Source: Brevibacterium linens ATCC 9172 (GTDB lineage Bacteria; Actinomycetota; Actinomycetes; Actinomycetales; Brevibacteriaceae). Taken from it: 64,000 bases of DNA. The notes beneath the pieces were generated by a model, which worked only from the letters and a program-made list of their open reading frames with translations, was not told where the DNA came from and ran no database searches. Position numbers and translations under genes: made by a program. The DNA is taken from NCBI RefSeq assembly GCF_900169165.1, contig NZ_FXYY01000001.1:186001-250000 (forward strand), read 5' to 3'. Shown here piece after piece: positions 22,414 through 58,076 of the stretch; positions within the stretch are counted from its first letter, which is position 1, and each line of letters begins with the position of its first letter.

Positions 22414-23455
22414 ATGAACGACAGCAGACGTGCACAGGTGCTGCGCGCCATCGTCGAGGACTTCGTCGCCACCAACGAACCCGTGGGATCGAAGGCGATC
22501 GTCCAGCGCCACACCCTCGGCGTCTCCCCGGCCACGATCCGCAACGATATGGCCCAGCTCGAGCACGAAGGCTATATCGCCCAACCCCACACCTCGGCCG
22601 GTCGGATCCCCACCGACCTCGGCTACCGGATGTTCGTCGACCGCATCGACGAGTTCAAACCGCTGACCACCGCCGAGCGCCGCGCGATCTTCCAGCTCAT
22701 CGACGGCGATGTCGACCTCGACGAGATGCTCGACCGCACCGTCCGCGTGCTCTCCGGCCTCACCCGCCAGGTGGCGCTCATCCAATACCCGACGGTGTCG
22801 CGGGCGCGCATCAAACACGTCGAGATCGTCGGCCTCGGCCCCGGCCGGATCCTCGTCGTCCTCATCACCGACGCCGGTCAGGTCGAGCAGAAGTCCGTGA
22901 TCACCCCGACCCCGCTCGACGAGGATGCCGTCCGCGGGCTGCGCGACCAGATCAATGCCGATTTCGCCGGACGCACGCTCGCGCAGGTCTTCGGTTCGTC
23001 CCCCACCGCCGAGGCGGTCGCCGCCGAATCGAGCGAGTCGGCGGGACGTGACGAGTCCGGACTCACACAGGTCAGGGCCGCCGTCGTCGACCTCGTCGCC
23101 GCGACCCGCGAAGAGCGCATCATCATGGCCGGGACTGCGAACCTCGCCCGTTCCGGCAGCGAATTCGGAGAGAAGATGGCCCCGATCCTCGAAGCCTTCG
23201 AGGAGCAGGTGGTCCTGCTCCGGCTGCTCACCTCGATGGCAGAGGACCATGGGGGGGATCAGCGTGCGCATCGGGCGTGAGAATACTCACGAATCGTTCA
23301 GTTCGACTTCCGTCGTCGCCGCCGAATATGGTCATGACGCGGGTTCGTCGGCCAGACTGGCGGTGCTCGGCCCGACCCGGATGGACTATCCGACGACGAT
23401 CTCGGCAGTCCGTGCCGTCGCGAAGTACGTGTCCTCGATCCTCGACCGAGGGTAG
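22414..23455 (+). pseudogene. hrcA: Heat-inducible repressor HrcA, split by a +1 frameshift in a G7 run
   Basis: The first frame (22414-23280) gives 288 residues: a winged-helix N-terminus (VGSKAIVQRHTLGVSPATIRNDM), SAGRIPTDLGYRMFVD, and the HrcA core. It then runs through seven G at 23251-23257 and stops after six residues of unrelated sequence. The remaining HrcA C-terminus, [10 protein letters not shown] through [10 protein letters not shown] to [17 protein letters not shown], continues in the next frame to 23455. With six G the frame is restored and the protein would be about 347 residues, normal for HrcA. Either the extra G is a sequencing error or the repressor is truncated by about 65 residues. 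dnaJ follows after 127 nt. Confidence 0.85.
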
Positions 23456-23582: not shown

Positions 23583-24698
23583 GTGGCCGATCACTATGAA
23601 ACACTCGGAGTGTCCAAAGACGCTTCCGCGGCTGAGATCAAGTCGTCGTACCGGAAGCTGGCACGCAAGTACCACCCGGACGTCAATCCCGGTCACGAAG
23701 ACGAATTCAAAGCCATCTCACTGGCCTACGACGTGCTCTCGGATCCGGAGAAGCGCCGCAACTACGATATGGGCGGCGGCGAGAACGGTCAGGGCTTCCC
23801 CGCCGGCGGCGGCTTCGGCGGATTCGGCGACATCTTCGAGACCTTCTTCGGCGGTGGCGGCGGACAGGCCGGAGGCCCCATCCCGCGCACACAGCGCGGC
23901 AAGGACGCCCTCGTCGGCGTCAACATCGACTTGAAGACCGCGGCCTTCGGCGGCACCGTCGATCTCGACGTGACCACTGCGGTCGTCTGCGACACCTGTT
24001 CGGGTGCCGGCACGCAGGAGGGCACGAAGATCGAGACCTGCTCGCTGTGCCACGGCGCCGGCAGCGTCCAGCGCATGACGCGGACCCTGCTGGGCCAGAT
24101 GGTCACGAACCAGACCTGCAACTCCTGCCACGGCTTCGGCACCGTCATCCCCAACCCCTGCCTCAACTGCCAGGGCGACGGACGCGTGCGCAAGCAGCGG
24201 ACCATGAAGATCCGCATCCCCGCCGGAGTCTCCGACGGCACCCGCATCCAGCTGTCCAGCCAGGGAGAGGTCGGTCCCGGCGGCGGACCCGCCGGTGATC
24301 TCTTCGTCGAGGTCATGGTCACCCGCCACGAGGTCTTCCAGCGCGACGGCGACAACCTCCGGGCCGCCGTCTCGGTGCCGATGACCGCAGCGACCCTGGG
24401 AGCGACCATCCCGTTCGAGACCTTCGACGGCACCCAGGACCTCACCATCGCCGCCGGCACCCAGTCCGGCACCGTCGTCAAACTCCCCGGACTCGGCGCC
24501 TCCCGCCTGCGCTCGGAGACTCGCGGCGACCTGCTCATCACCGTCGACGTCCTCACCCCGGACACCCTCGACGACGAACAGCGCGAACTGCTCGAGAAGC
24601 TCGCCGAACTGCGCGGAGAGGAAGCACCGCGGGCCCAGATCTCGACGGAGAACCGCGGAATGTTCTCCCGCATGCGTGAGAGGTTCGCCGGTCGGTGA
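23583..24698 (+). CDS. dnaJ: Chaperone DnaJ
   Basis: A 371-residue type I Hsp40. The J domain (1-65) has HPD at residues 31-33. A Gly/Phe-rich stretch follows ([20 protein letters not shown]). Four zinc-binding repeats appear near 140-205: [24 protein letters not shown] and [10 protein letters not shown]-terminal substrate-binding domain completes it. It stimulates DnaK ATPase and delivers unfolded clients. Sitting after hrcA and CIRCE, it corresponds to the hrcA-linked DnaJ2 of actinobacteria. GTG at 23583 follows AGGGAGAG. rsmE overlaps the stop. Confidence 0.96.
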
Positions 24699-31204: not shown

Positions 31205-31277
31205 GCGGATGTGGCTCAGTTGGTAGAGCATCACCTTGCCAAGGTGAGGGTCGCGGGTTCGAGTCCCGTCATCCGCT
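31205..31277 (+). tRNA. tRNA-Gly (GCC)
   Basis: A 73-nt cloverleaf: acceptor GCGGATG pairs with CATCCGC, D-arm GCTC...GAGC, anticodon stem-loop TCACC-TTGCCAA-GGTGA with GCC, and T-arm GGGTTCGAGTCCC. The CCA end is not encoded. Confidence 0.97.
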
Positions 31278-31303
31278 CGGAGGCGTCATGGCACTGCCTT
31301 GGC

Positions 31304-31374
31304 GGTGGCGTGGCCGAGAGGCGAGGCAGCGGCCTGCAAAGCCGTATACACGGGTTCGAATCCCGTCGCCACCT
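31304..31374 (+). tRNA. tRNA-Cys (GCA)
   Basis: A 71-nt cloverleaf: acceptor GGTGGCG pairs with CGCCACC, anticodon loop CTGCAAA with GCA, T-arm CGGGTTCGAATCCCG. CCA is not encoded. Confidence 0.96.
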
Positions 31375-31404
31375 CGGATGACCGGCAGAAATGTCGGTTG
31401 ACCA

Positions 31405-31476
31405 GCGCGATTGGCGCAGCGGTAGCGCGCTTCCTTCACACGGAAGAGGTCACTGGTTCGATCCCAGTATCGCGCA
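31405..31476 (+). tRNA. tRNA-Val (CAC)
   Basis: A 72-nt cloverleaf: acceptor GCGCGAT pairs with ATCGCGC, anticodon stem CTTCC/GGAAG with loop TTCACAC, anticodon CAC. It reads GUG. It differs from the next tRNA-Val at only two positions. Confidence 0.97.
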
Positions 31477-31513
31477 CAGGGACCCTCGGGTTCCGGTGCA
31501 ACAAATGAATAGA

Positions 31514-31585
31514 GCGCGATTGGCGCAGCGGTAGCGCGCTTCCCTGACACGGAAGAGGTCACTGGTTCGATCCCAGTATCGCGCA
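31514..31585 (+). tRNA. tRNA-Val (GAC)
   Basis: A 72-nt cloverleaf with the same acceptor and arms as the preceding tRNA-Val; the anticodon loop is CTGACAC, anticodon GAC, reading GUC and GUU. A tandem duplication with anticodon change is the simplest origin. Confidence 0.97.
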
Positions 31586-31590
31586 CGGAA

Positions 31591-55570: not shown

Positions 55571-57160
55571 ATGGCAGACATCGTCATCACCATCGCCGCC
55601 GCCCTCGCGCTCGGGCTGCTCGCCCATGAGCTGCGCATCCCGCCGCTCGTGGGGTTCCTCGCCGCCGGTTTCGGTCTGCACGTCTTCGGCTTCACCGCCT
55701 TCGCCGGGCTGCAGCAGATCTCCGACCTCGGCGTCGTTCTGCTCCTGTTCACCATCGGACTGAAGTTCGATCTGCGCTCCCTGCTCCAACCCGAAGCCCA
55801 CGGCACCGCTGCGCTGCACATGATCACGGTGGTCCTCCTCGGCGCCGGGACGATCGGAGCTGCCGCCGCCATCGGCCTCGTCAGCGTCGGCGGGGAAGCG
55901 GGCACCTTGGCTCTGCTCGGATTCGCCCTCTCGTTCTCCTCCACTGTGCTCGTGGTCAAAGTGCTCGAAGACCGCTCCGACGACGGGTCCTACTACGGTC
56001 AGATCGCCATCGCGATCCTCGTCCTCCAGGACCTCGCGGCGGTCGCCTTCATCTCGATCGCAGGCGAAGAGCCCCCGAGCCCGTGGGCCTTCGCCCTCGT
56101 CCTGCTCGTCCCCGCAGTCTGGGTGCTGCGACGGATCCTCGACCGCGTCGGACGCGGTGAGCTGCTCGTCCTCTTCGGCGTCGTCATGGCCCTGGGGCCC
56201 GGCTACGTCGCCTTCGAATCCGTCGGCATCCACGGCGACCTCGGAGCCTTGGTGCTCGGGCTGTCCTTCTCCACCCACCCGCGGGCCGTGGAGTTGTCGA
56301 AGTCCCTTTTCAGCGTCAAGGAGCTCTTCCTCGTCGGATTCTTCGTCGTCATCGGGCTCCACGCGGTTCCCACCTGGTCGGATCTGCTCATGGCGCTGGC
56401 CCTGTGCGTCGTCCTGCTGCCGTTCAATTTCGCGAGCTTCTACCTCATGGGACGGCTCTTCGGTCTGCGCAACCGCACCAGCGTGCGCACCAGCCTGGCT
56501 CTGAGCAACTTCTCCGAGTTCGCACTCATCGTCGTCGCCGTCGGCGTCGACAGCGGACTCTTCGAAGACAATTGGCTGACCACCATCGCCCTCGCCGTGG
56601 CCCTGGGTATGATCGGCTCCTCCCTGGCCAATGCCTACAGCCTTCCGATCGTGGCGAAGCTCGATGCGATTCTGCCGGATGAGAACGAGGCCCGGCTGCG
56701 GGCGAGTGACCGGCCGTTGGACACCGGGGACGCGGAAGTCGTCGTCCTCGGCATGGGCCGCATCGGCCGCGGGGCCTACGAGCGCTTCGTCGAACGCGGC
56801 GACCGCAGCGTCATCGGCATCGACAACGACCTCACCGTCGTCGAGGCTCTGCGCGCCGACGGGTTCACGGTGCTCGAAGGCGATGCCACCGACCACGAGT
56901 TCTGGCACCGCCTCGTCGTCGGCGGCAGCGCACACACCGTCGTTCTGGCCATGGCGCTGCACGATTCGAACACCTTCGCCCTCGAGCAGCTGCGCATCGC
57001 CGGGTTCCCCGGGACCATCGCCGCGGTTGTCCAACGCCCCGATCAGGCCGAACATTTCGTTCGTGCCGGGGTCCACGCGGTCATCAACATCTACGGCGGG
57101 TCCGGAGCCGCCGTGGCCGATGCCGCCATCGACAGTCACGAAGACGGCTGCCGGCAATGA
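55571..57160 (+). CDS. Kef/CPA2-type cation:proton antiporter with RCK domain
   Basis: A 529-residue membrane protein. Residues 1-375 hold about 12 helices of the sodium/hydrogen exchanger fold (CPA2), including LGLLAHELRIPPLVGFLAAG and LSFSSTVLVVKVLED. A TrkA-N (RCK) domain follows from about 395, with VVVLGMGRIGRGAYERFVER and GDATDHEFW, suggesting NAD(H)-gated K+ or Na+ export in exchange for protons. It ends before the TrkA-C domain seen in some relatives. ATG at 55571 has AGGAGG upstream. Confidence 0.92.
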   Translation: MADIVITIAAALALGLLAHELRIPPLVGFLAAGFGLHVFGFTAFAGLQQISDLGVVLLLFTIGLKFDLRSLLQPEAHGTAALHMITVVLLGAGTIGAAAAIGLVSVGGEAGTLALLGFALSFSSTVLVVKVLEDRSDDGSYYGQIAIAILVLQDLAAVAFISIAGEEPPSPWAFALVLLVPAVWVLRRILDRVGRGELLVLFGVVMALGPGYVAFESVGIHGDLGALVLGLSFSTHPRAVELSKSLFSVKELFLVGFFVVIGLHAVPTWSDLLMALALCVVLLPFNFASFYLMGRLFGLRNRTSVRTSLALSNFSEFALIVVAVGVDSGLFEDNWLTTIALAVALGMIGSSLANAYSLPIVAKLDAILPDENEARLRASDRPLDTGDAEVVVLGMGRIGRGAYERFVERGDRSVIGIDNDLTVVEALRADGFTVLEGDATDHEFWHRLVVGGSAHTVVLAMALHDSNTFALEQLRIAGFPGTIAAVVQRPDQAEHFVRAGVHAVINIYGGSGAAVADAAIDSHEDGCRQ

Positions 57161-57301: not shown

Positions 57302-57449
57302 CTGTTGTGCCTGCACGCTAAAGGCGGTCGGTGCGAGCGGATCTCGACGCTCAATCCCTCTTTCCCATCCGGGGAAACAACAGTCGCGTTTCGGGGCGAG
57401 AACCCTGCCGGGCCCATCGTGACAGAACTCATTGATGAAAGGTAATACA
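57302..57449 (+). promoter_or_regulatory. Candidate regulatory leader of rpsD
   Basis: About 148 nt lie between the promoter and the start codon, long for this window. It contains a G/C-rich middle able to pair (GCGAGCGGAT... and ATCCGGGG...) and no ORF I can support. S4 represses its own operon in other bacteria by binding the leader, so this could be an autoregulatory site; I cannot assign it to a known leader class. Confidence 0.35.
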
Positions 57450-58076
57450 GTGCCAGCACCAGCACGTAATCGCCGCATGACGCGCCTCTCGCGCGCCCTC
57501 GGCATTGCTCTGACACCCAAGGCCGAGAAGTACTTCGAGCGTCGCCCGTACCCTCCAGGTGAGCACGGTCGCGCCCGTCGTCGCAACGACAGCGACTACT
57601 CGGTCCGCCTCAAGGAGAAGCAGCGTCTGCGCGCGCAGTACGGCATCCGCGAGGCCCAGATGCTCAAGACCTACAAGGAAGCCAACCGTCTGCCCGGTCT
57701 GACCGGTGAGACGATGGTCGAGCTCCTCGAATCGCGCCTCGACGCCCTCGTCCTGCGTTCGGGCTTCGCCCGCACCATGGCCCAGGCCCGTCAGTTCGTC
57801 GTCCACCGTCACATCACTGTCGACGGACAGCGCGTGGACCGTCCCTCCTTCCGCGTGAAGGAAGGCCAGACCATCCAGGTGCACGAGCGTTCGGCTTCGA
57901 TGGATCCGTTCCAGGTCGCCGCCGCCGGTGGTCACAAGGACGTCCTGCCCGCAACGCCGGGCTACCTCAACGTGAACCTCGAGGGCCTGCAGGCAACCCT
58001 GCTGCGCACCCCGAAGCGCGAAGAGGTGCCGATCACCTGTGACGTGCAGCTCGTCGTCGAGTTCTACTCGCGCTGA
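57450..58076 (+). CDS. rpsD: 30S ribosomal protein S4
   Basis: A 208-residue primary 16S rRNA-binding protein. After a basic N-terminus (RNRRMTRLSRALGIALTPKAEKYFERRPYPPG) it has the S4 domain with LDALVLRSGFARTMAQARQFVVHRHITVDG. The long form without the zinc-binding N-terminal cysteines is seen. GTG at 57450 follows GAAAGG; ATG codons at 57432/57435 would add six residues and lie before the binding site. It stands alone, away from the rpsM-rpsK cluster, as in other Micrococcales-type genomes. Confidence 0.96.
   Translation: MPAPARNRRMTRLSRALGIALTPKAEKYFERRPYPPGEHGRARRRNDSDYSVRLKEKQRLRAQYGIREAQMLKTYKEANRLPGLTGETMVELLESRLDALVLRSGFARTMAQARQFVVHRHITVDGQRVDRPSFRVKEGQTIQVHERSASMDPFQVAAAGGHKDVLPATPGYLNVNLEGLQATLLRTPKREEVPITCDVQLVVEFYSR

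Follow-up and report, generated by a model that had tools for sequence, protein, structure and literature searches.

A seven-G run that breaks hrcA in one Brevibacterium genome: a probable recent loss of the CIRCE repressor

In the draft genome analysed here (G000; 3,959,351 bases in 80 contigs), the heat-shock repressor gene hrcA loses its reading frame at seven consecutive G, and a recent, lineage-private loss-of-function frameshift is the reading that we favour as probably correct on the sequences compared. A true loss fits best because the break is private to one of 57 genomes of the genus, a private A-to-G change stands beside it, and other private frame breaks appear to be few. Most likely this is an ordinary recent break of a single-copy regulator and not a new mechanism. 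The window is the 64,000-nucleotide stretch of contig C52 from 186001 to 250000; positions without a contig or locus name are those of the window.

The broken reading frame

The first hrcA frame starts with ATG, passes through the G run and stops at TGA (23278-23280), and its final nine residues are foreign to the protein (Table 1). The tail of the gene lies in the +1 frame, in an ORF of 176 aa. Profile searches divide the protein at the same place: PF01628 (HrcA) matches positions 1-165 of 215 in the first frame and 168-215 in the +1 frame, and TIGR00331 matches positions 1-273 of 338 and 273-337, respectively. The full C-terminal domain is therefore held in no single open frame. Compared with the 346-aa HrcA of the closest relative, 67 native residues are gone and nine foreign ones are gained. 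These results bear out the original prediction that hrcA is frameshifted at the seven G, that the HrcA C-terminus carries on in the +1 frame to 23455 and that about 65 C-terminal residues are lost. The truncated frame still scores above the family cut-offs (113.6 bits against 22.2 for PF01628, 229.9 against 197.2 for TIGR00331), which calls for caution in annotation: such an ORF would be named a normal repressor. A second, compensating hrcA copy was considered and rejected, the family matches in G000 being the two halves of the broken copy only.

The run is the sole stretch of seven G or C in the window and also the longest, with three runs of six. Seven-G runs are scarcer here than expected by chance: the 64 kb of the window contain a single match, whereas 100 dinucleotide-shuffled versions contain 16.89 on average (sd 5.11) and never fewer than one. 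Across the whole genome, 40 run matches collapse to 14 tracts; the only one on contig C52 other than the hrcA tract lies some 120 bases short of that contig's end.

Table 1. Features of the hrcA-dnaJ region in the window.
Feature	Position	Strand	Description
CIRCE operator, TTGGCACTC-N9-GAGTGCCAA	22337..22363	+	HrcA binding site upstream of hrcA-dnaJ
hrcA, first frame	22414..23280	+	ORF of 288 aa; matches to TIGR00331 (hrcA) and PF01628
Seven-G run	23251..23257	+	Frame-break site; six bases, GAGGGG, in the closest relative
hrcA, remainder in the +1 frame	23258..23455	+	65 codons and stop TAG; unjoined to the first frame
dnaJ	23583..24698	+	Intact; presumed second gene of the operon; PF00226, PF00684 and PF01556 all matched

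Origin of the break

The 57 genomes of the same genus are taken to be Brevibacterium, since 28 of the 31 named loci found with the window HrcA belong to this genus. In a profile search, 55 of the 57 carry PF01628 stop-free from position 1 or 2 to 215; in one genome (G012) the domain is in two pieces, cut by contig ends, and G000 is the only one with HrcA broken in frame. This combination of intact orthologues and a lone broken copy would, on sequence grounds, class the G000 gene as a unitary pseudogene by frameshift. The site was aligned across 60 loci and the window's own. Two loci fell short of the site (L058, L062) and two had names other than Brevibacterium and aligned poorly over it (L060, L061), which leaves 56 loci that come from two sources overlapping in genomes and so are not independent. 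At the break site, each of the 56 is one base shorter than the window. The longest G run found there is four, and five loci read GAGGGG, among them the closest relative (G043, locus L004; 97% DNA identity over the gene queried). A pattern for the hrcA context with either six or seven G matched one of the 57 genomes, G000 itself, and none of the 56 others.

Because the ancestral site was not six G, both the A-to-G change and the extra G fall on the G000 lineage as private changes; read in frame, the former would replace Glu by Gly. Aligning hrcA from relatives, as the original prediction had proposed, accordingly places the break in G000 alone and shows no ancestral run of six: six G would open the full-length frame on paper, but the relatives have no such run, the closest reading GAGGGG. 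The ancestral sequence and the CIRCE operator had both gone unmentioned in that prediction.

These two changes suggest a simple path. An A-to-G transition in the ancestral GAGGGG would create a slippable G run, and an extra G would then be gained by replication slippage and left uncorrected by the NucS-type mismatch repair of actinobacteria. Both this order of events and slippage as the cause are what we infer from the alignment and from the repair genes. NucS_C is matched in G000 at 146 bits, and MutS_V found no match in a profile search that matched 11 of 14 control genomes; the available part of one report states that NucS mismatch repair leaves indels uncorrected (PMC8228993). For these reasons the G run should be open to uncorrected slippage. 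The hrcA case would then be an example of a single transition giving a conserved actinobacterial gene a slippery tract.

Codon comparisons say little about the age of the break. Relative to the closest relative, hrcA has 21 synonymous and five nonsynonymous codon differences before the G run, and two and none, respectively, in the tail after it. The unchanged tail protein is equally consistent with a gene that broke recently, with one that is rescued and with a consensus error. When changes were polarised with two outer relatives (G028, G038), the G000 branch had six synonymous and three nonsynonymous private codon changes, and the sister branch had 12 and none. This contrast hints at relaxed constraint on hrcA, although the nonsynonymous excess (3/9 against 0/12) is not significant (one-sided Fisher p 0.063), and we rejected it as proof of an old loss, taking it as suggestive. 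By nonsynonymous fraction hrcA is mid-ranking among 134 genes (index 68 counted from 0), a ranking given no weight since the baseline consists of the longest, uncurated ORFs and is inflated by them.

The foremost alternative to a true loss, though we hold it to be unlikely, is that the draft consensus is wrong at this G-rich site and that hrcA is intact in the living strain. It would suit a draft of 80 contigs, a break at the window's longest stretch of G or C, a tail without private amino-acid changes and a gene that 55 of the 56 other genomes carry whole (in G012, contig ends interrupt it). Given GAGGGG in the closest relative, however, it needs two wrong calls jointly, an A read as G and an extra G. 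The lengths of G or C runs elsewhere also mostly agree with those of the closest relative: among 295 five-long runs in the aligned stretch, 206 are identical, substitutions alone account for the difference in 82, and seven coincide with gaps; among seven six-long runs, three are identical and four carry substitutions. Systematic homopolymer error was rejected on this basis, none being seen over 261,923 aligned bases of C52. In addition, a common sequence closes contigs C48, C52, C54 and C65, each of which breaks off 116-121 bases into it. This would suit a short-read k-mer assembly, a type that should make few indel errors.

Over the same 261,923 aligned bases, G000 and its closest relative differ by 25 isolated indels of 1-2 bases, nine of which lie outside any called ORF of both genomes (by uncurated ORF calls). 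Twenty-three sites, that is 22 of these indels and an extra site at 263368, were compared with G043, G028 and G038; the three indels not placed in this way are 32887, 134405 and 219335. For several sites, divergence of the outer relatives was too great to assign the change to one genome. Among the 23, indels private to G000 within genes of recognised domain were found in hrcA and in one ABC transporter gene, and private frame breaks in recognised genes thus appear few in the compared stretch. At two positions outside called ORFs (C52:116011, C52:231792) G000 differs from all three relatives, and at two others (C52:61248, C52:254917) the bases are missing in G043 and not in G000. A G000-private base at C52:243389 (window 57389) falls in the gap separating ORFs 55571-57160 and 57432-58076; the relative's frame that is broken there runs antisense to the latter. 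In the comparison with G000, split genes number nine in one direction and eight in the other, C52:243389 being one of them; not all were resolved singly.

The ABC transporter gene lies outside the window, at C52:172700 (L072:12154-12705). It is an ATPase ORF of 184 aa (PF00005) with the second private frame break: the three relatives are each one base longer near this position, and the G000 ORF ends just past it.

We regard it as improbable that slippage in the G tract switches HrcA on and off reversibly, as at a contingency locus. Expansion of a seven-G run in glpK of Mycobacterium tuberculosis is described as frequent and reversible in the accessible part of one report (PMC6667613), G000 has NucS and no detected MutS, and another of its tracts (L164, in frame) has nine G against six in three of five close relatives. 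Against this stand the single length state seen for the hrcA tract and its presence in none of the 56 other genomes, which speaks against a long-kept switch; a phase-variable locus would be expected to keep its tract in relatives, and the longest run at the 56 loci is four. A little less probable again is the version in which the newly arisen tract turns the repressor into a hard-wired switch, young and reversible, by which cells alternate between repression and permanent readiness for heat, with slippage uncorrected by NucS.

It is very doubtful that the cell continues to produce full-length HrcA, whether through slippage of RNA polymerase within the tract or through +1 frameshifting by the ribosome: the tail is conserved and a G run permits re-pairing after a slip, but a recoded gene would be expected to retain its slippery tract, which is absent from all 56 Brevibacterium loci spanning the site, and the branch, with two synonymous differences in all, is too short for the conservation of the tail to be telling. 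Among the four options offered at the outset (sequencing error, true loss, switching, transcriptional slippage), true loss is thus the best fit and error is less likely, whereas positive evidence was found neither for switching nor for transcriptional slippage.

Expected effect on the CIRCE regulon

The CIRCE operator upstream of hrcA-dnaJ matches its pattern with no mismatch, where 0.03 matches are expected at up to three mismatches. Exact copies of GCACTC-N9-GAGTGC number three in G000, one before hrcA and the others before two ORFs of the Cpn60 (GroEL) family. The genome therefore has the arrangement characteristic of the HrcA family, with CIRCE before its own operon and before chaperonin genes.

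If hrcA is truly lost, effects on the HrcA protein and on transcription in this strain can be predicted. The truncated HrcA would lack the last 48 or so of the 215 positions of the C-terminal domain and should fail to fold properly or to repress. Expression of the CIRCE-controlled hrcA-dnaJ operon and of two groEL loci would then be raised at all times, and we consider that the frameshift probably derepresses them. A polar effect is also conceivable: dnaJ starts about 300 bases past the premature hrcA stop, and premature termination could lower its expression. Structures add little here. The AlphaFold model of HrcA has a mean pLDDT of 54.7 and falls below 50 over residues 232-343, being too poor in the lost part, and the solved HrcA structure 1stz aligns well over residues 2-193 (profile positions 4-194) only. 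A strain without its CIRCE repressor would probably overproduce GroEL and DnaJ at rest, and its stress tolerance could change.

The closest experimental parallel is a laboratory knock-out of hrcA in Lactobacillus plantarum, in which the CIRCE repressor is likewise lost and the class I regulon partly deregulated. According to the portion of the report at hand (PMC3842655), the predicted regulon was altered in part only, the dnaK operon was not activated, and the loss was linked to enhanced colony formation at 42 C. By analogy, the partial change and the lack of dnaK operon activation would weigh against the derepression proposed above. Unlike that knock-out, the G000 gene has a natural C-terminal truncation, known from its sequence alone.

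Frame-breaking G runs have precedents in actinobacteria. In M. tuberculosis, one-base growth of a seven-G run disrupts glpK in clinical isolates; the functional state has seven G, and numerous isolates carry an eighth (45 out of 1,031 in one set), as far as the available part of the source goes (PMC6667613). The hrcA break is similar in that a one-base expansion of a G run breaks an actinobacterial gene, and it differs in that the tract itself is new and seen in one genome, whereas functional glpK has seven G already. Reversible frameshift indels and frameshift scars are also described for M. tuberculosis in the accessible part of another report (PMC8339072). These resemble the hrcA case as frame-breaking indels in low-complexity sequence of an actinobacterial gene, but in hrcA the aligned contig comparison with the closest relative revealed no restoring indel. 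Among the literature matches listed, no title names a natural hrcA frameshift in Brevibacterium.

Other tracts and neighbouring features

Two full-length hrcA genes are present in Brevibacterium sp. UCMA 11754, in opposite orientation and about 11 kb apart on one contig (L044, L045), and two copies likewise occur in G046:C9.

The sequence shared by the ends of C48, C52, C54 and C65 (L160, L161, L162, L165) directly follows runs of 7-10 G; it may mark one end of a mobile, repeated element that either lies within G runs or creates them. On contig C61, a glycosyltransferase ORF has nine G close to its end (L164:2001-2009). This tract is three bases shorter in all five close relatives compared, with six G in three of them and interrupted runs in two, and the reading frame is kept.

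Contig C34 holds two longer tracts. A zinc alcohol dehydrogenase-like ORF (PF00107) has thirteen C close to its end (L158:2001-2013), a candidate for variable length; the region found no match in the ten relatives searched, a search that shows little. Thirteen G (L157:2001-2013) lie beside an apparent inverted repeat, outside any ORF of at least 80 aa with a start codon. Within the window, four clustered tRNA genes (Gly, Cys, Val, Val) were found at 31205-31586.
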